Positions 419 to 31,378 of a DNA stretch of 42,980 nucleotides are shown here, one piece after another. The DNA is taken from positions 78,007-120,986 of the forward strand of contig PFGG01000060.1 of NCBI GenBank assembly GCA_002783405.1, in the 5' to 3' direction. The position numbers and the translations under genes are program-made. A model generated the notes under the pieces. It searched no databases, was not told the DNA's origin, and saw only the letters and a program-made list of their open reading frames with translations. This DNA is from a bacterium (Candidatus Blackallbacteria) CG13_big_fil_rev_8_21_14_2_50_49_14 (lineage in GTDB: Bacteria; Cyanobacteriota; Sericytochromatia; UBA7694). Position 1 is the first letter of the stretch. Each line of letters opens with the position of its first letter.

Positions 419-1237
419 TCAGAGTTCCTTTCTCCAGGAAGCACTTTCTTGGCCTTCATAGTGGGGGCGAAGCAGTGGCTTGCCCGCTTTGCCCGGTTCA
501 ACCTCCCAATAGGGGCCGTAAATTCTTTCAAGCACTTCAGGTCTTAATACTGTATTTGCAGGCCCTTGGGCTTCAAGTTGGCCCTGATGCAGCAAAAGCA
601 GTTGATCACTGAAATGGGCAGCTAAATTCAAATCATGTAAAATCACAAAAATGCCAAGACCGGTTTGGCTGAGGGTGCGTAAAAGATGCATGACTTCGAC
701 CTCTGCCTGAATATCCAGATGCGAAGTCGGCTCATCGAGCAGTAAAACTTGAGGGGCTTGAGCCAAAGCGCGTGCCAATTGCACTTTTTGCCATTCTCCA
801 CTGCTGAGCGAGCGAATATCCCGGTTTTGAAACCGAACCAATCCGCAGTCTTGCAGTGCACTCCCCAGACATTCAAGATCCTGGGGGCGCATTCTTCCCA
901 GCCAGTCTTGATAGGGGCTGCGACCCAGGCTGACATATTCCCGCAGGGTGAGCGGAAAAGAGGGCAAGGGCTCACGGGGGTTCATGACTGCCAGGTGGCG
1001 GGCCCGTTCTTGAGCCGACCAGTCTGCGAGAGGTTTTTCCGAAAGCCTGACTTGACCGGTACTGGGCTTTAATACACCCGCTAGAAGTTTGAGCAGTGTC
1101 GATTTTCCTGCCCCATTGGGCCCAACCAATACCGTGACCGTTCCCGCTTTGATTTCCAAATGGAGTGGGTTCAGCAATTGTTTTTCGGCAACGCGAAAAC
1201 TCAGATTTTCAGCCTTGAGCAAGGTGGATGTGCTCAA
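419..1237 (-). CDS. Orphan ABC transporter ATP-binding protein (FecE/BtuD-like)
   Basis: A 272-residue ABC ATPase of the kind that powers iron-chelate, haem or cobalamin importers. Visible motifs are Walker A GPNGAGKST (39-47), the signature LSSGEWQ (144-150), Walker B VLLLDEP (164-170) and the H-loop histidine in ILHDLN (His201). The segment LTLREYVSLGRSP and the ending LERIYGPYW are typical of the FepC/BtuD group. The Q-loop region reads AVMNPREP (83-90), without the usual glutamine. Translation probably begins at TTG, which overlaps the TGA of the upstream TPR gene (TTGA), so the two are likely coupled. No permease or binding-protein gene lies beside it, so its partner is unknown. Confidence 0.85.
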   Translation of the reverse strand: MSTSTLLKAENLSFRVAEKQLLNPLHLEIKAGTVTVLVGPNGAGKSTLLKLLAGVLKPSTGQVRLSEKPLADWSAQERARHLAVMNPREPLPSFPLTLREYVSLGRSPYQDWLGRMRPQDLECLGSALQDCGLVRFQNRDIRSLSSGEWQKVQLARALAQAPQVLLLDEPTSHLDIQAEVEVMHLLRTLSQTGLGIFVILHDLNLAAHFSDQLLLLHQGQLEAQGPANTVLRPEVLERIYGPYWEVEPGKAGKPLLRPHYEGQESASWRKEL

Positions 1238-2823
1238 CGCGAAGATTTCTTTTGCAGAACGAGTTTCAATTCCTGAACCAGTTTTTGGATAGTGACCCGA
1301 TCCGTGGCGTTGGGTTCGAGTTTCAGATAGCTTTCAAAGGCTTGAATCGCGGCTTGCGCCTGCCCTGTTTTGACCTGTGCCAGTCCCAGATTGCGCTGTA
1401 GGTCGGCCCTTTGACTGTCTTGGCGCAAGGCATTTTGAAAGTCCTGAATGGCCTGGGGATAACGTTGCGCGTTGTAGTGCAGCACGCCCCGCAGAGCCAG
1501 CGCGTCGGTATAGGTGGGGTTGATATTCAGAGCCTGGTTGAGGTAGGTCATGCTGCGGGTTTGAGACTCACTCCCGCTGCTCTGAAAATACATGCTGGCC
1601 AGGGTGTAATGTAATTCTGGGTTTTGCGGCGAATACTTAAGCGCCTGGTTAAAGTATTCCTGTGCTTTTTCGGTTTGGCCTGTTTGCCAGGCCATTTTTC
1701 CCAATTGGATCCAGGCGGTGACCAGATTGGGTTTGAGGCGGGTACTTTCATGAAAATAGGCTTCGGCCAGATCAGGATTGTTTTGCTGCAGGTGAAGTTT
1801 GCCCAGATGATAGAGTGTGTCTGAATAGCTTTTGTCCTGTTTGCCCAATTGTTCGAAGACACGGATGGCCTGCTCAGGTTGATTGCTTTCTTCGTAGAGA
1901 CGGCCCAAATCATAAAGTGCGGGTGCGTAGTCAGAGCGGATCATGAGCAGGTTATTCAGTATTTCAAGGGCCTTGCCGTGCTGCCCCAGGCGTTCGTAAC
2001 TGATCGCCATCTGGTGGTGTGCGCTGACATGGGTGGGAACCAAAGCAACGGCTTGAACCAGTGCGGCGAGGGCGGCATGGTGATTGCCTGTTTGGTTAAA
2101 AATCCAGCCCAGTTGATAATGGGCTTCACTGAGGCGGGGATCGTATTGCACAGATTTTTGATAGGCTTGAATCGCTTCTTTCCATTTTTTCTGCGCTTTG
2201 AATTGATTCCCTGTTTCATACAAGCGCAGCGCTTCTGTAGAGTGGGCACTGTCTTGCTTTTCAAGGTTGGCGGGAGAAAGGCGTGGATATTTTTTTTCTA
2301 ACTGTTTGAGCTGTTGTTGTGCGCCTGGATGGCCAGGCTGCAAAGCGAGTACCTTGCGAAATGCATCCATGGCCTTTTCTGGCATATTGGATTGTGCGTA
2401 ACAGACGCCGAGGTTGAACCAGACGTCGGGATCTTCGGTGCGTTGGCGCACGATAAAACGATAGACTTCAATGGCCCGATCCCAGGATTTGGTTTCGATA
2501 TAGACCACGCCTAAATTATTATAGGCGTCAAAATAATCTGTTTTGAGCTCAATGGCCTGCCGATAGGCAGTAATGGCTTGTTGGGGCTGTTTATTATAGT
2601 GATAAACCACGCCCAGGTTATACCAGATCTCGGCATCCATGGGTCTTAGCTTTTGCAGGGCCTGGTAATGCCGAATTGCTTCGGGATAATTGCGGCGGGT
2701 ATAGGCTTGATAAGCTTTTTGTTCTAAATCACGACTATCTGCGGCAAAGAGAGCGGGTGTTATCAGAAATGTCAGTAAAAAATAAGTTTTAATTAATGGT
2801 CGGGAGCGCCTTTGTGTGCCCAT
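1234..2823 (-). CDS. Exported TPR-repeat protein
   Basis: A 529-residue protein with a Sec-type signal sequence (KTYFLLTFLITPALFAADS, about residues 13-31) followed by tetratricopeptide repeats over almost its whole length. Many copies of the pattern W/A-YNLGVVY...A...Y..AL.L.P can be read, for example AEIWYNLGVVYHYNKQPQQA and PDVWFNLGVCYAQSNMPEKA. TPR arrays form helical scaffolds for protein binding, so a role as an assembly or scaffold protein outside the cytoplasmic membrane is inferred. A break between two repeat blocks lies around residues 175-200. The start ATG lies inside the upstream gene (31-base overlap) with GAGG about 10 bases before it. Its TGA overlaps the ATPase start, suggesting a three-gene operon. 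Confidence 0.85.
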   Translation of the reverse strand: MGTQRRSRPLIKTYFLLTFLITPALFAADSRDLEQKAYQAYTRRNYPEAIRHYQALQKLRPMDAEIWYNLGVVYHYNKQPQQAITAYRQAIELKTDYFDAYNNLGVVYIETKSWDRAIEVYRFIVRQRTEDPDVWFNLGVCYAQSNMPEKAMDAFRKVLALQPGHPGAQQQLKQLEKKYPRLSPANLEKQDSAHSTEALRLYETGNQFKAQKKWKEAIQAYQKSVQYDPRLSEAHYQLGWIFNQTGNHHAALAALVQAVALVPTHVSAHHQMAISYERLGQHGKALEILNNLLMIRSDYAPALYDLGRLYEESNQPEQAIRVFEQLGKQDKSYSDTLYHLGKLHLQQNNPDLAEAYFHESTRLKPNLVTAWIQLGKMAWQTGQTEKAQEYFNQALKYSPQNPELHYTLASMYFQSSGSESQTRSMTYLNQALNINPTYTDALALRGVLHYNAQRYPQAIQDFQNALRQDSQRADLQRNLGLAQVKTGQAQAAIQAFESYLKLEPNATDRVTIQKLVQELKLVLQKKSSR

Positions 2824-3845
2824 GTTGCATATGCCTCGGAAAGTTTTAACGGCTTTTGTTGGAAAGGTTGGGGTCGGTTGCTGACGAAAACCAGAAAGCT
2901 TTCAAGATCAGAATAGGTAATATTGCGCAGAACATCCTGCATCGGAATCCCCATATAGGTGCCTTTGGGGGGAGCTGGCAGTTTTTGACCATAGGGGGCG
3001 CAGTTGCGGATTTCTTCGATTGCACGCGTCATCCATTCATATTCCAGGCGTTTATTGCCTGGACGAAAATCCCGGATATCTTTTTCAGTTAAGAAAGGAC
3101 GGTTGTGGATGGTTGAAAAGAAGACGCGCAATTCAACCAAGGTGCCAAAACCACTGCGAAAACTGGGAATTTTGCTGTCGTCTTCTTCTGCAACTGCACT
3201 GAGTTGGGCTGTGCCTCTTGCGGGTTCTGTGAAAGTGGGGGCCTGTGCCACACGTTTTCCGCCCAGTATTTTATCTGTCAGGGTACGCAAGACAAAGGTA
3301 AATTCCTGAAGAATGGCTTTTACCAACCCCACTGTAAGTTTATGCAGGGTTTGCGCGAAAGCTTCAGCCAAGCCCATCAGGGTTTGGGCGATGGGTTCAA
3401 ACAAACGGCGAAAAGCGTCAGAAATGCGATCGCCCAAGCTGTCGAGGCTGTTGCCAACAACATCAGAGACCCGGTTGATTTCCTGATTCATTTCAGAGAC
3501 ATAATGGTCGAGGTGATTGGGGCTTTGGCTATTGCGTTTGCCTGCACTTGCTTTGGCTGTGGTCGCTGAGGGTTTGGGGGGCGAGGCCGCTGTTGTTGCT
3601 GCGGGAGTTGCGATCGGGGGCGGCGCAATTTTGCTCTGACTTGCAGAAGGTATTCCTGGCAAGGGAGGTGGGGCAGGCAGTTGTGCTGTGCTCGGTTTTT
3701 CTGGGGTTTCACCCTTGGGCGCAGACAATTGTTTGGTGTTTTTCTTTTGGCTCTCATGAATGGCTTCGCGGCTAAACGACATATTATCGCTCCATTGGGA
3801 GCGTGTATATAATTCATCGGTTGTGGGTCGCTTTTTTTCAGACAT
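2793..3845 (-). CDS. Unknown proline/alanine-rich protein, first gene of a minus-strand operon
   Basis: A 350-residue protein of unrecognised family. Three parts can be seen: a polar N-terminus (1-45); a low-complexity Pro/Ala/Thr/Ser linker (about 46-105); and a helical middle (about 110-195) with amphipathic, partly hydrophobic stretches such as EPIAQTLMGLAEAFAQTLHK. A more ordinary globular C-terminal part follows (about 225-350), containing FSTIHNRPFLTEKDIRDFRP and SDLESFLVFVSNRPQPF. There is no signal peptide and no clear transmembrane helix. It heads the run towards the TPR protein and ABC ATPase and overlaps the TPR gene by 31 bases. The divergent 177-base region upstream presumably holds its promoter. 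The function is unknown. Confidence 0.75.
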   Translation of the reverse strand: MSEKKRPTTDELYTRSQWSDNMSFSREAIHESQKKNTKQLSAPKGETPEKPSTAQLPAPPPLPGIPSASQSKIAPPPIATPAATTAASPPKPSATTAKASAGKRNSQSPNHLDHYVSEMNQEINRVSDVVGNSLDSLGDRISDAFRRLFEPIAQTLMGLAEAFAQTLHKLTVGLVKAILQEFTFVLRTLTDKILGGKRVAQAPTFTEPARGTAQLSAVAEEDDSKIPSFRSGFGTLVELRVFFSTIHNRPFLTEKDIRDFRPGNKRLEYEWMTRAIEEIRNCAPYGQKLPAPPKGTYMGIPMQDVLRNITYSDLESFLVFVSNRPQPFQQKPLKLSEAYATWAHKGAPDH

Positions 3846-3975
3846 ATCGGGCCATTTCCGGCGTGAGCCGTTGTTTAGATTGATAAGGCAAGGGGGGTGA
3901 TGCTTCAGGTCTGCAGAATACCTGCCTGCAATGTATTATAACTTAACTTGATCCCTATCTTGTCAGCTCTGGGAA

Positions 3976-4005
3976 TTGAATTTTGCCTGTACTCTATACT
4001 ATGAT
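3976..4005 (+). promoter_or_regulatory. Candidate sigma-70-type promoter for the transglutaminase operon
   Basis: TTGAAT (3976-3981) and TATGAT (4000-4005) are separated by 18 bases in the 177-base divergent region. Transcription would start near 4012, leaving a very short leader before the ATG at 4023. This is a pattern match only. Confidence 0.35.
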
Positions 4006-4022
4006 GAGCGAAGAAAATTCTC

Positions 4023-6284
4023 ATGTTTAAACTCTTTTTTCAACAGGATGGTTACAGGCCGCGAGAAGTAGAAGATGCTCTGCTTCCCCGTTTGCTTGTC
4101 TTTTTGACTGTCGCCGTTGCGATCTTTGCAACGACCTATTGTGCCATGAGTCCTGGCTCGCTCAGTTTGACTGCTCTTTTGGTGACTTTTTTAGGTTCCT
4201 GGTTGAGTTGGCATCGCCGCAGGGCAAAAAATTGGTGGATCAAGCTGATCTTGGCTTTACTGATGATGGTCGCGCTTGCGAATTTTATGCTTGAAATTTC
4301 GCAAAATATCTTTGATGCCCGAATTCCGCTGGCACATCTCTTGATCTGGTTACAGGTTTTGCATAGTTTTGACCTTCCACGGCGTAAAGATCTGTTTTAT
4401 TCGCTTTGGGTTGCTTTGATTTTGATCAGTGTGGCGGCAACTCTCAGCCGGGATGGCAGTTTCAGCTATTTTCTCATGCCCTATGCCCTTTTTGCGCTGA
4501 GCAGCCTTTTTGCCAGTCATCTTTCTAGCCAACAGGTGCCCTGGCCGAAACCCGTGCTGGGAGCACGGCTGCTTTTGCCTGTTATGGGTTTGTCTTTGGC
4601 AGGGGCTTTGCTGGCTTATGTTTTTATGCCCCGCTACGAAGGTTTGAAGTTTCAAAGTTTTCCTGTTTCACTTCAGATTAAGAATTTGCCAGTTTTTCAG
4701 GGGGAAATTAAAAACAAGGCCTATAACAAGGGAGCACAAACAGGCTCCAAAAATCAAAACCGTGCAAAAAACCGCAAGCAAAATGGCTTCGACCCCATGG
4801 CCTATTATGGTTTCAGTACCGAACTTGATTTGAACTATCGCGGTAAACTCTCCGATGAAATCGTGATGCGGGTGAGAAGCAATCGGCCAAATTATTGGCG
4901 GGGAATGGCCTTTGACGTATACGATGGCCAGGCCTGGAGCATGACCTGGCCGATGAAACTGTCGCGTCTTGAGAACAGTCAATCCCCGATTTGGATACGG
5001 GAAACACGCAATTTAAAACAAAATATTGTACCGCGCGAGCGTTTGATTCAAACCTTTTATATTGAAAAAGACCAGAGCAATCTGATCTTTCATGCTCCTT
5101 ATGCTGAGTTTATTTATTTCCCAACGACCTATGTTTTGCGCGATGAATACGCCAGTTTACGAAGCCCGATTGAGCTTTTTGAAGGCACGGCCTATACCGT
5201 GATCTCTGAAATTCCTGTTTTCAGTGAGCAGAAATTGCGACAGCTCAGCTGGGAGCAACTGTCTAAACAACCCCAGGATCCCGTTTATTATCGGGTGCCT
5301 GAGAATTTCTCGCCACGAACGAAGGCTTTGGCCCGTCAAATCACCCGTCACAGTCAGGGGCCCTATGCAGCCGTTCGTGATTTGGAAGCCTATTTAAAAC
5401 AAAACTATCCCTATCGCCTGGATATCCCTGAGTTTCCAGAAAATGTGGATACAGTAGATTATTTTCTTTTTCAGCAAAAGGCGGGCTATTGTGAACATTT
5501 TGCCTCTTCCTTGACTCTGATGGCGCGCTCTTTGGGGCTGCCCGCCCGTTTGGTGACCGGTTATACCGCAGGAACGTACAATCCGATTACTGGCTATTTT
5601 GAGGTGCGCAGCAGTGATGCGCATGGGTGGACAGAAATTTATTTTCCTTATCAGGGCTGGGTTTCTTTTGATGCGACCCCAGGTTATTTGGCTTATCGTG
5701 CGCAACCTACGGTGTATCAGGAAAACAATGCCTCCCAATTGGCGAAATTCTTTGCCGCTCTTTTGCCCCAGGGCTTGAAAAATGCCTTGGGCGCAGTGAC
5801 GGCTTTTTTAGTGGGGCTTTTAGGGGGAGGCCTTCAGTTATTGGGTTTGCTTTTCAAAAGTTTTTCACTGTCTGTGTTGATTACAGGTGTGGTGCTTTTG
5901 ATTGGGTTGATCTTGGTGGGCGTGTTTCTCTGGAGTCGTTGGGCCCGGCGTGCTGTGTCGCCACTTTGGATTCCTGCTTATGCCCAGGAAAAAATCCGCA
6001 AAGCCTTGATTGAACGTTATTTAAACCATCTTTCTGAATGGGAGCGGCTTCTGGGAATTGAAACCGATTTGGCTCTCACACCCCGAGAACGGGTGGCGGC
6101 TTTGGCTCGCATGCAGTCGGTTTTGGCGGAATCGCTCGTGCCTTTGACTGAACGCTATTATGCGCTTCGTTATGATCTGCGCAATACGAATTCAGCCGAT
6201 TTTGTTTGCTTTGAACAAGAGTTGGCGGGAGTGGAAGCGCAGTTAAAACAAGGCACCTTCGCCTCCGGTGTTTTGCCTCGCTAA
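4023..6284 (+). CDS. TgpA-type transglutaminase-like membrane protein
   Basis: A 753-residue protein with the architecture of the TgpA/DUF3488 family. There are about seven N-terminal membrane helices (within residues 20-205), a large extracytoplasmic region, a transglutaminase-like core, one C-terminal membrane helix (about 618-640) and a cytoplasmic tail resembling DUF4129. The catalytic triad is intact: Cys490 in AGYCEHFASS, His534 in SDAHGWTEI and Asp550 in SFDATPGY. Relatives act at the cell envelope and the domain is cysteine-protease-like; the substrate is unknown. Many bacteria encode this protein beside a MoxR ATPase and a DUF58 protein, and neither is present here. The ATG at 4023 follows a weak purine-rich site. 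A cyclase-domain gene lies about 100 bases downstream. Confidence 0.88.
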   Translation: MFKLFFQQDGYRPREVEDALLPRLLVFLTVAVAIFATTYCAMSPGSLSLTALLVTFLGSWLSWHRRRAKNWWIKLILALLMMVALANFMLEISQNIFDARIPLAHLLIWLQVLHSFDLPRRKDLFYSLWVALILISVAATLSRDGSFSYFLMPYALFALSSLFASHLSSQQVPWPKPVLGARLLLPVMGLSLAGALLAYVFMPRYEGLKFQSFPVSLQIKNLPVFQGEIKNKAYNKGAQTGSKNQNRAKNRKQNGFDPMAYYGFSTELDLNYRGKLSDEIVMRVRSNRPNYWRGMAFDVYDGQAWSMTWPMKLSRLENSQSPIWIRETRNLKQNIVPRERLIQTFYIEKDQSNLIFHAPYAEFIYFPTTYVLRDEYASLRSPIELFEGTAYTVISEIPVFSEQKLRQLSWEQLSKQPQDPVYYRVPENFSPRTKALARQITRHSQGPYAAVRDLEAYLKQNYPYRLDIPEFPENVDTVDYFLFQQKAGYCEHFASSLTLMARSLGLPARLVTGYTAGTYNPITGYFEVRSSDAHGWTEIYFPYQGWVSFDATPGYLAYRAQPTVYQENNASQLAKFFAALLPQGLKNALGAVTAFLVGLLGGGLQLLGLLFKSFSLSVLITGVVLLIGLILVGVFLWSRWARRAVSPLWIPAYAQEKIRKALIERYLNHLSEWERLLGIETDLALTPRERVAALARMQSVLAESLVPLTERYYALRYDLRNTNSADFVCFEQELAGVEAQLKQGTFASGVLPR

Positions 6285-16064: not shown

Positions 16065-17741
16065 TTAGCTTGGGGAGCCTTGATTTTTCTGCATTTTGGC
16101 CCAGCTATCCACCAAGCCAATCGTGCGGTTGAAGACCAGTTTTGTTTCGCTGGAGTCACTGTCCAGGCAAAAATAACCGGTGCGCAGGAATTGAAACTGT
16201 TGGCCTGCCTGGGCTGATTTCAGCGCAGGCTCAACCAGTGCCGAAACCACTTTCAAGGAATCGGGGTTGAGCTGATCTGCAAAATCGGCGTCAGAATCAG
16301 GGTTTTCTTTGAAAAGATAGTCGTAAAGGCGCACTTCGGCCTCAATCGCATCCTGGGCATTGACCCAGTGCAGCGTGCCTTTGACTTTGCGGCCATCTTC
16401 TGTCCAGCCCCCCCGGCTATCAGGTGCATAGGTGCAGCGCAGTTCGGTAATCTGTCCCTGCGCGTCTTTGATCACTTCCTGACAGGTAATATAGTAGGCG
16501 TGTTTCAGTCTGACTTCCTGTCCGGGCGCGAGGCGGAAGAATTTTTTGGGAGGATCTTCCATAAAATCCGTACGCTCGATATAAAGTTCACGTGAAAACT
16601 GAATCGGGCGTGTGCCTGCTTCTGGGTTTTCAGGGTTGTTTTCAGCTTCAAAGGTTTCAACCTGGCCTTCGGGATAGTTGGTGAGTACCACCTTTACGGG
16701 ATCCATCACCACCATCCGCCGCAGCGAGGTTTGGTTCAAGGCTTCTCTTACAAAAGATTCGAGCATGGCAATATCGACCATGCTGTTACTTTTGGCGACC
16801 CCAGCCCGCTCACACAGGGTGCGAATGGCTTCCGGTGGAAAGCCCCGCCGACGCATGCCAGACAGGGTGGGCATACGGGGGTCATCCCAACCACTGACAT
16901 GATTTTCCTGAACCAGGCGCAGCAGATAGCGTTTGCTCATAATCGTACGGGTGATGTTCAAACGCGCAAATTCAATCTGTTGTGGATGGCAGGGCACATC
17001 CAATTGATCCAGAAACCAGTCATAAAGTGGGCGATGATCTTCAAATTCGAGGGTGCAGATCGAATGGGTGATGCCTTCAAGCGCATCAGAGAGCCCATGG
17101 GCGAAATCGTACATGGGGTAAATATACCAATCATCGCCGGTGCGGTGATGATGCGTTTTTTTGATGCGGTAAATGGCTGGGTCACGCAGATTCATATTGG
17201 GGTGTGTCATATCAATTTTGGCACGTAGAATTCGGCTGCCTTCTTCAAACTCACCGGCTTTCATACGCTCGAATAAATCAAGGCTTTCTTCCACAGGGCG
17301 TTCCCGCCAAGGGCTGTTTTTACCCGGCTCTGTCAGGGTTCCCCGGTATTCTCTGATTTGTTCTGGGGTCAAATCATCGACGTAGGCTTTGCCAGAACGA
17401 ATCAGATCGACAGCGAATTCATAGAGTTTTTGAAAATAATCTGAAGCAAAATAGAGATGAGAATCCCAATCATATCCCAGCCAACGGATATCTTTCTGAA
17501 TGGATTCTACATACTCTACTTCTTCCTTGGCGGGATTGGTATCATCAAAACGCAGATGGCAGCGGCCGCCATTTTTTTGCGCCAAACCAAAATTCAGCCA
17601 GATGGACTTGGCATGTCCGATATGCAAATAACCGTTGGGTTCTGGTGGAAAACGTGTAATCACGGTTTGATGTTTTCCGCTGGCCAGATCAGCATTGATA
17701 ATGTCCTGAATAAAGTGGGAGGGGAGTTCGTTCTCGCTCAT
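16065..17741 (-). CDS. glnS: Glutaminyl-tRNA synthetase
   Basis: A 558-residue class I synthetase that charges tRNA-Gln with glutamine in the cytoplasm; the length matches E. coli GlnS (about 550). The HIGH signature is at residues 40-43 within [16 protein letters not shown], and the KMSKS-like loop reads IMSKRYLL. The family's tRNA-acceptor-binding segments ([40 protein letters not shown]) are all present, followed by the C-terminal anticodon-binding beta-barrels. AGAGGCAAG directly precedes the ATG. Having GlnRS suggests the cell does not rely only on the GatCAB amidation route for Gln-tRNA. It is transcribed alone and divergently from the beta-helix lipoprotein. Confidence 0.97.
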
Positions 17742-17893: not shown

Positions 17894-20806
17894 ATGCGGA
17901 AATCGATACGCAAAACAGTAAAAGGGTATTCTCGTTTCTTGGCGGGAAGTACCCTGCTCAGTCTGACCGTAGCGGCCTGTGCCCCTTCTGGGGCTCCTAC
18001 CGTTGCCTCTAAAATTCAGCCATCTGTCCTTCCTGTTATTCTGCCTTCCTCTTCTTCGACTCAAACACCGGTTGCTCCAGTTACTCCCGTTGCTCCGTTG
18101 CCTCCGCGCGCAGTTCGCCTGTCCTTTAAGCTGGATCCCGCACTTTTGGGCAGTTTTAGAATCAAGCAGATTACGGATGTGGCAGCTTGTCAGCAGGCAT
18201 TGACTTCTGTTCAGACCGTTCTGACGGTGCCAGGCACACTCTCTGCCCAGGCCCAGACCAATCTGAGTCAGGCGGGTATTCAGATTCAGGATCAAGGAAC
18301 CCAAACGCTCCTGACTTTTTCCAATACGGTTCAACAATTGGCAGCCGATACCTTGGGGCTGAATTATACCCTGAATGATCTGCCTGTGGGCACGACCACT
18401 GGTCAAACCACATTCCGTGATAGCCAAGGCGCTGAATTGGGCTTTGTTGATTATAATATTGACGTTACTGCTCAGGCGGGCACGACGGTGACGGTGCAGC
18501 TGAAGTCAACGGGCGCCACCTCAACGACGCTTCCTGCTTGTCCCCAGGTTCAGGCGCAACTCAGTGGCGCAACATTGACTTCTACGGGGGGAGATATTTC
18601 AGCAGCTCCTGTGGCAAGCCCCACACCTGCTGTGGCCCCACCTGTGATTGCAGCTTTAAGCACGACAACAGGGGCAGTATTGGATCCTGTCGTGATTACG
18701 GGTTCTGGTTTTACGGGCGCGACCTCTGTGAAGTTTGCAGGGATTGAAGCCTTTTCCTTTAACGTAGATAGCGATACTCAAATTACAGCTCAGGTGCCCA
18801 ATGGTTTCAGTTCAGGTATTTTGACCGTGAGCAATCCTGGTGGACCCGCTTATTCTGCCGACACCTTTACTTTACAATCCTATGCGGGTGGCCCACGCAC
18901 GCTTTATGTCAATGCTGCAGCGGCAGGTGGAGATGGCAGTTCTTGGGCTTCTGCCATGAACCGTTTGGATACAGCAGTTTATATTGCTCAGGCGGGTGAT
19001 CAGGTCTGGGTTACCGAAGGTGTTTACTTGCCTACGCCGACAGGTGATCGCAATAAGTCTTTTTTGCTTCAGGCAGGAACCACGATTTATGGGGGCTTTG
19101 TCGGAACTGAAACGGATCCCAGTCAGCGCAATCTCGATTTGCATGAAACCGTTTTAAGTGGCGATTTGGCTCGAAATGACGATTACAGTGATGCTAATTT
19201 CAGCGATATGGTAGAAAACTCATACCATATTGTCATTGGGGCCAATAATGTCACATTAGATGGCTTGACGATTGCCGGTGGCAATGCCGATGGTGTGGCT
19301 CCGCACGATCGTGGCGGCGGGCTTTATAATAAAGGCACCTCCCCCATTCTCAACAAAGTGAGATTTTTAGAAGACCGAGCCAATTATTTGGGCGGCGGAA
19401 TTTATAATTCTGAGGGGGCCTCACCTCAACTGAGCAATGTGGCAATGAATGGTTGTTTTGCCCGGCAGGCTGGAGGCGCTATCTATAATGCTCCAGGTTC
19501 AGTTCCCAGTGTGAGTAATAGCACCATCGCCTTCAACTCTGCCAAGCATGGTGGAGGGGTTTTTAATGAGGGAGCTTCTCCCGTATTTACCAATGTAAGT
19601 TTTACTTCGAATACAGCCCAATATTTTGGGGGCGGGCTTTGTAACCGCAATGGAGCTTCTCCCACGCTCAATCAGGGCCGTTTTGAAAATAACCGTGCGG
19701 CGATTGGGGGCGGGATTTACAATGTAGATGCTTCTTCTCCTAGCATCACGGGTTTCACCTTTGTAAACAACAAAGCAGATAATGGTGCTGGCCTTTATGC
19801 CTATAATAATTCAATAATCAATCTGCAAGAGTCTGTTTTTAAGGGAAATATTGCCACCTATTATGGGGGGGGGATTTACCTCTACAAGGCTTCTGCTGGC
19901 ATCGCTCAAATGAACCGTTTGGTTTTGACCGATAATACGGCTCGTAACGGGGGCGGAATTGCGATTCGCAGTAACTCGGCTCCCACTTTAACGAATACGA
20001 TGCTTTCCAATAATTTTGCCTCTGTGACTGGGGGGGGGATTTATGTCAGCTCTCAGGCTGCGCCAGTCATCCGCCACGTCACCATGTACAATAATTCAGC
20101 CAATAATACGGGGTCTGAAATCTATGCTGATTATGTGGGAAGGCCTTCGGTGATCAGCAGTATTGTCTGGAACCCCTATAAAACCAAACCTATTAATAAG
20201 TCGACAGACAGTCAGTTAAGCGTCAGCAATTCAATTGTCAGTGACCTGTCAATGGCGACAGGTTCTGGGAATCAACTGGCGGATCCCTATTTTGTCAATT
20301 TTCTAGATATGGATGGCCCCGATGATGTGTATCTGACTTCAGATGATGGAATGCGTCTTTCGGATACCAGTCCTGCTTTGGGAGCTGGCTTGGCGGCAGG
20401 TATGCCTGCCGCCGATATCCTGGGTGTAGCGCGCACCTCTCCACCTGATGCCGGGGCCTATCAAGGGGGCTTTACAAGTATTCTGCCTCCGTTGCTGGTT
20501 CAAGATTTGGTGGTTGGAACGGGGCCTGCTGTTGCCACAGGCAATGCTGTCACTGTGAATTATATTGGCACCTTGACCAATGGCACCGAATTTGATAACT
20601 CGTATACCCGTGGTCAGCCTTTCAGCTTTACGGTCGGAGCCAATCAGGTCATTAAAGGCTGGGAGCAGGGCTTAATCGGTATGCAGGCTGGTGGCAAGCG
20701 TCGTTTGACAATCCCACCCCATCTGGCCTATGGCAGTGCTACGGTGGGTATTATTCCGCCTGATTCAACTCTCATCTTTGAGATTGAATTGGTGAGTATT
20801 CCCTGA
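17894..20806 (+). CDS. Lipoprotein fusing a TIG domain, a GGGIYN beta-helix and an FKBP prolyl isomerase
   Basis: A 970-residue predicted cell-surface or periplasmic lipoprotein. In order it has: a signal with lipobox and lipidated Cys29 (LTVAAC); a Pro/Thr-rich linker (about 30-75); an unassigned domain (about 76-235); an IPT/TIG immunoglobulin-like domain (about 250-330, with VVITGSGFTGATSVKFAG); a right-handed beta-helix (about 335-840) containing GGG(I/L)YN repeats; and a C-terminal FKBP domain (about 865-970). FKBP active-site residues are conserved: the VNYIG tyrosine, EFDNS, VIKGWEQG with its tryptophan, LAYGS and the VGIIPP isoleucines. It is therefore probably an active prolyl isomerase. 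The ATG at 17894 follows GGGAG by 6 bases. This combination is one I do not recognise as a standard family. Confidence 0.88.
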   Translation: MRKSIRKTVKGYSRFLAGSTLLSLTVAACAPSGAPTVASKIQPSVLPVILPSSSSTQTPVAPVTPVAPLPPRAVRLSFKLDPALLGSFRIKQITDVAACQQALTSVQTVLTVPGTLSAQAQTNLSQAGIQIQDQGTQTLLTFSNTVQQLAADTLGLNYTLNDLPVGTTTGQTTFRDSQGAELGFVDYNIDVTAQAGTTVTVQLKSTGATSTTLPACPQVQAQLSGATLTSTGGDISAAPVASPTPAVAPPVIAALSTTTGAVLDPVVITGSGFTGATSVKFAGIEAFSFNVDSDTQITAQVPNGFSSGILTVSNPGGPAYSADTFTLQSYAGGPRTLYVNAAAAGGDGSSWASAMNRLDTAVYIAQAGDQVWVTEGVYLPTPTGDRNKSFLLQAGTTIYGGFVGTETDPSQRNLDLHETVLSGDLARNDDYSDANFSDMVENSYHIVIGANNVTLDGLTIAGGNADGVAPHDRGGGLYNKGTSPILNKVRFLEDRANYLGGGIYNSEGASPQLSNVAMNGCFARQAGGAIYNAPGSVPSVSNSTIAFNSAKHGGGVFNEGASPVFTNVSFTSNTAQYFGGGLCNRNGASPTLNQGRFENNRAAIGGGIYNVDASSPSITGFTFVNNKADNGAGLYAYNNSIINLQESVFKGNIATYYGGGIYLYKASAGIAQMNRLVLTDNTARNGGGIAIRSNSAPTLTNTMLSNNFASVTGGGIYVSSQAAPVIRHVTMYNNSANNTGSEIYADYVGRPSVISSIVWNPYKTKPINKSTDSQLSVSNSIVSDLSMATGSGNQLADPYFVNFLDMDGPDDVYLTSDDGMRLSDTSPALGAGLAAGMPAADILGVARTSPPDAGAYQGGFTSILPPLLVQDLVVGTGPAVATGNAVTVNYIGTLTNGTEFDNSYTRGQPFSFTVGANQVIKGWEQGLIGMQAGGKRRLTIPPHLAYGSATVGIIPPDSTLIFEIELVSIP
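19313..20127 (+). repeat. Protein-level beta-helix repeats (GGGIYN type)
   Basis: About ten imperfect units of 20-28 codons, each carrying GGG(I/L)YN or a variant (GGGLYN, GGGIYN, GGAIYN, GGGVFN, GGGLCN, GAGLYA, GGGIYL, GGGIAI, GGGIYV, GSEIYA), separated by strands such as SPxLxNVxFxxNxA. The pattern matches the polymorphic-outer-membrane-protein-like beta-helix. The repeats are diverged in DNA, so recombination between units is unlikely to be recent. Confidence 0.8.
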
Positions 20807-20889: not shown

Positions 20890-23437
<2,548 letters not shown>

Positions 23438-30730: not shown

Positions 30731-31043
30731 GAGCTTTGAATTCCGCTGAACCCGTGTGAACACAGCCATCTCGGCGGAATTCAGAGAAGATCCTTTTGGG
30801 TCTACTTGTGGTCTGTTCGAGAAGCGTGTAATATGTACTACTGTTATGACGGTGGCTGAAATCTTCCTGATAGGAAGCAGTTTCTGGCTACTTAACAGTT
30901 TGAAAGCGTCTATCGCAAATAGATTTATTTGCTTAAAGTGTAGATCTTGATCTCTGCGTTTCGGCTTGATTGATGGCAAGAAACAAAAGTCATACACACC
31001 CTGTTTGTTTTGCTTAGTAAGTAAGCAGGCAGTTGGTGCGCAT
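30731..31043. other. 313-base gap with three hairpins before the tRNA cluster
   Basis: No credible gene. Three stem-loops can be read: a 10-base stem TGAATTCCGC/GCGGAATTCA (30737-30746 and 30774-30783) with a 27-base loop; a 7-base stem GCAAATA/TATTTGC (30915-30921 and 30926-30932); and a 6-base stem TGCTTA/TAAGCA (31011-31016 and 31022-31027) just before the first tRNA. The first has no T-run, so it is not a standard terminator. A candidate tRNA promoter lies at 30806-30834. Confidence 0.6.
30806..30834 (+). promoter_or_regulatory. Candidate promoter for the tRNA cluster
   Basis: TTGTGG (30806-30811) and TAATAT (30829-30834) with a 17-base spacer. It is about 210 bases upstream of the first tRNA, so the primary transcript would have a long leader. 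Confidence 0.35.
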
Positions 31044-31115
31044 GCCGATGTAGCTCAACGGTAGAGCAACGGTTTTGTAAACCGTAGGTTGTAGGTTCGA
31101 TTCCTATCATCGGCA
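31044..31115 (+). tRNA. tRNA-Thr (anticodon TGT)
   Basis: A complete cloverleaf. Acceptor GCCGATG pairs with CATCGGC, the D-arm is GCTC/GAGC, the anticodon stem is ACGGT/ACCGT around TTTGTAA with anticodon TGT, and the T-arm loop is TTCGATT. The 3' CCA is not encoded. It reads ACA (and probably ACG) codons. Confidence 0.97.
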
Positions 31116-31133
31116 TCAGCCCCGAACGTATAC

Positions 31134-31216
31134 GGGAGGATGGCCGAGTGGTTAAAGGCGGCAGACTGTAAATCTGCTCACGTACGTGTACGCTGGTTCG
31201 AACCCAGCTCCTCCCA
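31134..31216 (+). tRNA. tRNA-Tyr (anticodon GTA)
   Basis: A class II tRNA. Acceptor GGGAGGA pairs with TCCTCCC, and the anticodon stem GCAGA/TCTGC encloses CTGTAAA (anticodon GTA). The long variable arm (CACGTACGTGTACG region) is the bacterial tRNA-Tyr form. CCA is not encoded. It lies 18 bases after tRNA-Thr(TGT). Confidence 0.97.
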
Positions 31217-31223
31217 CTTATAC

Positions 31224-31296
31224 GCCCAGATAGCTCAGTTGGTAGAGCACATCCTTGGTAAGGATGAGGTCACGAGTTCGAGTCTCGTTCTGGGCT
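31224..31296 (+). tRNA. tRNA-Thr (anticodon GGT)
   Basis: A complete cloverleaf. Acceptor GCCCAGA pairs with TCTGGGC, the anticodon stem CATCC/GGATG encloses TTGGTAA (anticodon GGT), and the T-arm is ACGAG/CTCGT around TTCGAGT. The discriminator base is T and CCA is not encoded. It reads ACC and ACT codons. It lies 7 bases after tRNA-Tyr, so the three are one transcript. Confidence 0.97.
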
Positions 31297-31378
31297 CTTT
31301 AAATTCTATCCAGAATAACTCAGATATATTTGATAGCAGCATCATGACAGCAGCAGTACACCAAGGACACGTAAAACC

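Follow-up and report, generated by a model that had tools for sequence, protein, structure and literature searches.

The window analysed here, i.e. the whole stretch of 42,980 nucleotides (G000:C60:78007-120986), belongs to a 5.65 Mb genome (G000) assembled in 84 contigs, and contains a gene whose product carries a lipobox, a TIG-type domain, a beta-helix and a C-terminal FKBP domain. The gene is found at positions 17894-20806 (+ strand, as are all domains described below), and its translation gives a single stop-free frame of 970 aa, as an earlier note made from the sequence had described it. The frame starts with an ATG at 17894, with GGGAG 6 nt upstream; at the base composition of the window (50% G+C), the chance of a 970-codon open frame is about 7e-21.

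The protein begins with a predicted signal peptide (17894-17980) that ends in a lipobox cysteine, the criterion for bacterial lipoproteins: the motif is VAAC at residues 26-29, the lipobox already noticed earlier, and Cys29 is predicted to be lipidated. All four copies with a visible N terminus (the window and loci L045, L046 and L038) have such a motif, in the forms VAAC, LVAC, LGAC and LIAC. A Pro-rich linker follows, and then an N-terminal beta-rich domain (aa 71-237; 18104-18604) without a match in Pfam or NCBIfam; it is delimited by conservation (62% and 42% identity in the two full-length orthologues described below) and by the strands in its AlphaFold model (pLDDT ∼43-84). The next domain is probably of TIG/IPT type (aa 250-328; 18641-18877). 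PF01833 is unlisted for the window protein itself, but the orthologue from genome G002 matches it at the homologous position (28.2 bits against a cut-off of 20.9, E=1.9e-6), and in the window protein AlphaFold gives the region a confident beta-sandwich fold (pLDDT ∼90), so that the TIG domain proposed in the earlier note is made probable by the orthologue and the model.

The beta-helix is preceded by a leader (aa 333-440; 18890-19213) with a GSSW...YGGFxGTE...LSGD block, which aligns both with the helix paralogues and with plasmid proteins annotated as choice-of-anchor Q. The right-handed beta-helix itself (aa 441-798; 19214-20287) has ∼11 rungs of the GGG[IVLM][YFCA] type: 11 GGG-type motifs were counted (the earlier note gave about ten GGGIYN repeats), Chlam_PMP repeats of Pfam match at 7.1e-8, and the AlphaFold pLDDT is mostly >90. 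A contig scan with the helix as query matched nothing closer than distant helix proteins of Methanobrevibacter and Bacteroidales. Between the helix and the FKBP domain we observed a feature absent from the earlier note, a terminal block (aa 799-858; 20288-20467) similar to choice-of-anchor Q: NF041518 (choice_anch_Q) matches at aa 820-857, with 23.6 bits in the window protein, 29.4 in its G001 orthologue and 18.8 in that of G002 (cut-off 25). After a short linker comes the FKBP-type prolyl isomerase domain (aa 868-970; 20495-20803), a member of the FKBP_C family (PF00254, aa 880-967, E=1.3e-33, 115.7 bits against a cut-off of 21.1). Its model has the FKBP fold, in line with the domain recognised earlier, and the closest PDB structures found by Foldseek are Mip-like, FkpA and FKBP12-type PPIases (rmsd ∼1-1.5 A, ∼50% identity).

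The fold of each module is thus a predicted one, and the confidence of prediction varies along the protein. The full-length AlphaFold run (on 13 aligned sequences; mean pLDDT 72.5, pTM 0.56) gives confident TIG, helix and FKBP parts, and mostly low confidence for aa 749-864. In a rerun on aa 440-970 (pLDDT 80.4, pTM 0.70) the helix, to residue ∼798, and the FKBP are again confident, and the ∼67 residues between them (aa 799-865) have pLDDT <50; this stretch may be flexible.

A protein search of relatives, which the earlier note had proposed as a check, shows the same fusion in three other genomes of the family. Full-length orthologues are found in G001 (same genus, 63% identical) and G002 (same family, 43%); the G003 copy is a C-terminal fragment: its contig starts within the helix-terminal block, and the frame continues from there across the FKBP. 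In addition, G004 has an N-terminal fragment of a copy, cut by a contig end after 669 codons. The junction is therefore supported by four independent assemblies (G000, G001, G002 and G003), and the fusion gene is real and conserved within one family. An assembly join or frameshift between the beta-helix and FKBP parts, which the earlier note had named as a possible undoing of the finding, was rejected as the origin of the fusion, since the frame is intact and independent assemblies of the family carry the same fusion.

We searched for the junction more widely with a profile of aa 780-970 (A4, four rows). Over 386 genomes of the phylum, the only junction-spanning matches among those listed are G000, G001, G002 and G003 (284-349 bits); the listing reached about E=1e-35, and a true junction match is expected at its top. 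The remaining listed matches (at most 149 bits) cover the FKBP and, of the block before it, no more than a part, and nearly all are short frames. Among the matches listed over 395 Bacteroidota genomes, none covers the junction and no frame exceeds 365 aa. On plasmids, no record reaches 80% coverage of helix plus FKBP, and the best plasmid helix matches are annotated choice-of-anchor Q proteins. A widely shared architecture was rejected for these samples, and no catalogued family with this domain order was found in the Pfam/NCBIfam scans, both genome samples or the plasmids, so that within this scope the second doubt of the earlier note does not apply. A literature search gave no paper on an FKBP/beta-helix fusion, and a looser one gave beta-helix papers without FKBP. 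Within the phylum and Bacteroidota samples the fusion is confined to four genomes of one family, as unusual as the earlier note supposed; both halves are well known, and their combination appears to be new and narrowly distributed. As for the hosts, no photosystem reaction-centre gene was found in 18 searched genomes of the class (a control cyanobacterium has them), and from this absence and the make-up of the phylum sample we infer that this is a non-photosynthetic class of Cyanobacteriota, perhaps Sericytochromatia.

Downstream of the fusion gene lies a gene (20902-22332, + strand; 476 aa) that resembles a prolyl-tRNA synthetase by sequence appearance and is not claimed as part of the system. 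It adjoins the fusion gene in the window, G001 and G002 (86% and 80% identical in L045 and L046). A functional link between the isomerase and this neighbour was considered and reduced to synteny only, as the adjacency is seen in three genomes and is absent in G003, where an ABC-type ATPase gene and further exporter-like genes lie behind the copy instead (L039, 813-5984). The other flank in the window is a glutaminyl-tRNA-synthetase-like gene (16065-17741, - strand), kept only in G001, and a cluster of three tRNA genes (Thr-Tyr-Thr) is found at 31043-31297 (+ strand).

In a tree of 68 FKBP domains (107 columns), the fused FKBPs of the window, G001 and G003 are joined (support 92/95), with a Bacteroidota FKBP next (89/88); the G002 copy has a very long branch and stands apart from the other three. 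Neither a single clade of all four fused FKBPs (p-AU 0.448) nor their grouping with the resident free-standing FKBPs (p-AU 0.328) is rejected. The simplest reading would be that the fusion arose once and the copies then diverged unevenly, and it is helped by the gene order with the prolyl-tRNA-synthetase-like neighbour, which is common to the window, G001 and G002. Another long protein with FKBP, different from the fusion, was seen in L048 (G073:C2:699500-705000): an 828-codon frame with a C-terminal FKBP, preceded by coiled-coil and transmembrane-like stretches, with no beta-helix seen by eye.

The fused FKBPs differ in how well they keep the isomerase pocket. Using the 14 ligand-contact positions of human FKBP12 as reference and 66 free-standing FKBP homologues for comparison (mean of 11 residues matched), we counted 12 matches in the window copy, 11 in G001 and eight each in G002 and G003. 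The two departures in the window copy (E54 to Q and H87 to V) fall where most of the 66 free-standing FKBPs vary too, and the window and G001 copies keep every one of the ten positions that 95% or more of these conserve. The G002 copy has F36 changed to L and I91 to Y, and the G003 copy W59 to M and I91 to V; R42 is also changed in both (it is found in 59 of the 66 free-standing FKBPs, and among the fused copies only in the window). The earlier statement that all active-site residues are conserved therefore nearly holds for the window copy, but fails for the fusion family. Conservation differs as well: between the genus mates (window and G001) the fused FKBP is the best-conserved module (73% identity, against 61% for the helix rungs) and changes about as much as the free-standing FKBP (75%), whereas between the window and G002 the fused FKBP is 50% identical and the free-standing FKBP of the same genomes 71%. 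Since the pocket is altered in two of these four fused domains, catalysis may not be their shared function.

At least six helix paralogues of the same five genomes have a C terminus that can be seen, and all of them lack FKBP: L035 and L036 (G000), L037 (G001), L041 (G002), L042 (G003) and L044 (G004); a lipobox is present in several of these FKBP-less paralogues. In L040 (G004, 1202-4045), the end of the first helix is followed by a second TIG domain and the start of a second helix, cut by the contig end; this continuation marks the position after the helix end as one that takes added modules in this group. The helix of the window protein contains 13 [SAVN]-Pro bonds. The two fused proteins measured cleanly have 4.4 and 3.9 prolines per 100 helix residues (the value for L046 was left out, as the measured region was too large), and the unfused helices range from 1.5 to 6.6.

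Taken together, these data point, tentatively and with somewhat less than an even chance, to an anchored beta-helix lipoprotein whose C-terminal FKBP acts in trans on envelope or extracellular proteins. By this reading, which would fit most of the facts, an FKBP was acquired at the C terminus of an anchored beta-helix protein, directly after the choice-of-anchor Q-like block. The lipid on Cys29 would hold the N terminus in a membrane, probably the outer one, and it is the lipobox that suggests display at the surface; the N-terminal beta domain and the TIG domain would form the base and the beta-helix the shaft, with the FKBP at the far end on a possibly flexible stretch. From there the FKBP would act in trans: it would bind proline-containing segments of other proteins in the envelope or outside the cell, and copies with an intact pocket, such as that of the window, would also isomerise them. 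What the data show directly is the architecture, the lipobox and the conservation of the fusion in the family, whereas the membrane location, the extended shape, the action in trans and the catalysis are inferred. The isomerase on a long rigid arm imagined in the earlier note is no more than plausible: helix and FKBP are each modelled with confidence, but the link of ∼67 residues is not.

Three other explanations were weighed against the trans-acting FKBP. The most serious, possible but less probable, is that the protein retains the FKBP fold as a tip or cap that binds ligands or proteins, with isomerisation incidental or lost. It gains its weight from the remodelling of the fused pockets: the copies of G002 and G003 no longer have pocket residues that all or nearly all of the 66 free-standing FKBPs share, and the fused domain has diverged more between the window and G002 than the free-standing one. 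Two points weigh against it, however: the pocket is kept in the window and genus-mate copies (except R42 in the genus mate), and activity may survive pocket substitutions. It is improbable that the FKBP instead serves its own protein, catalysing or nucleating the folding of the beta-helix, like the autochaperone of beta-helical autotransporter passengers. The C-terminal place beside a beta-helix is like that of autochaperone domains (PMC5767081), and the window helix has 13 [SAVN]-Pro bonds. But helices of the same kind occur without FKBP in the same genomes, the proline density of the fused helices lies within the unfused range (so that proline-rich rungs, tried as a mark of folding in cis, fail to separate fused from unfused helices), and FKBPs that lack a chaperone module usually catalyse folding weakly (PMC11013033). 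The paralogues and the proline content thus make a beta-helix that carries its own folding catalyst, the other hypothesis of the earlier note, the less likely reading, and we consider it unsupported.

A third possibility, very unlikely in our view, is near-neutral accretion, in which a single recombination event attached the FKBP and the protein gains little from it. This would suit the narrow distribution in a single family and the variety of what follows the helix end in the paralogues (e.g. the TIG and helix of L040), but four genomes from three genera have kept the FKBP, and it is the most conserved module in the genus of the window. Returning to the trans-acting FKBP, a bolder version, which we regard as rather unlikely, is that these proteins form a dedicated class of envelope-anchored foldases or receptors limited to one family of non-photosynthetic Cyanobacteriota. 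Their choice-of-anchor Q beta-helix would present the FKBP to clients outside the membrane, and in some lineages the isomerase pocket would have been turned into a specific binding site.

To our knowledge, those FKBPs outside the cytoplasm that have been characterised in detail are small and have helical or chaperone partners. An isomerase in a large lipid-anchored beta-helix protein would, if true, be a different way of placing a folding or binding activity in the envelope. The four natural copies, two with near-intact pockets and two without, could show whether isomerisation or binding keeps the module. The practical weight is moderate, given the narrow distribution and the conditional nature of the functional statements.

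Several known systems share parts of this architecture. On the helix side these are the choice-of-anchor Q proteins (NF041518): the leader, the GGG-rung beta-helix and the terminal block align, and the G001 copy scores above the family cut-off; the fusion protein differs in having an FKBP after the terminal block and an N-terminal lipobox anchor, and the window copy falls below the cut-off (23.6 versus 25). Type Va autochaperones also place a C-terminal module beside a right-handed beta-helix (PMC5767081), but they precede a translocator barrel, whereas the fusion protein ends in the FKBP (no match to a C-terminal autotransporter beta-barrel translocator was found in the window protein with Pfam). 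On the FKBP side, the fused domain matches the FkpA-type model PRK10902 (1.9e-29) and structures of FkpA, a periplasmic FKBP (51% identity); however, the PRK10902 score is 102.9 against a cut-off of 215, as the FKBP part alone matches and the N-terminal part of the model is unmatched. The nearest functional precedent would be Mip. In Mip a helix of 6.5 nm carries the FKBP away from the base at the outer membrane (PMC2311308), and Ng-MIP of Neisseria is a surface-exposed FKBP lipoprotein (PMC8981591). Legionella Mip and Ng-MIP thus share with the fusion protein a C-terminal FKBP held away from its base in the envelope, which for the fusion protein is the probable location, and in Neisseria also the lipoprotein nature (PMC2311308, PMC8981591). 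The means differ: neither the N-terminal dimerisation domain nor the connecting alpha-helix of Mip was found in the window protein (Pfam/NCBIfam scans and model), and where Mip, at ∼23-30 kDa, uses a dimerisation domain and a long alpha-helix, the fusion protein, at 970 aa, would use a TIG domain and a beta-helix.
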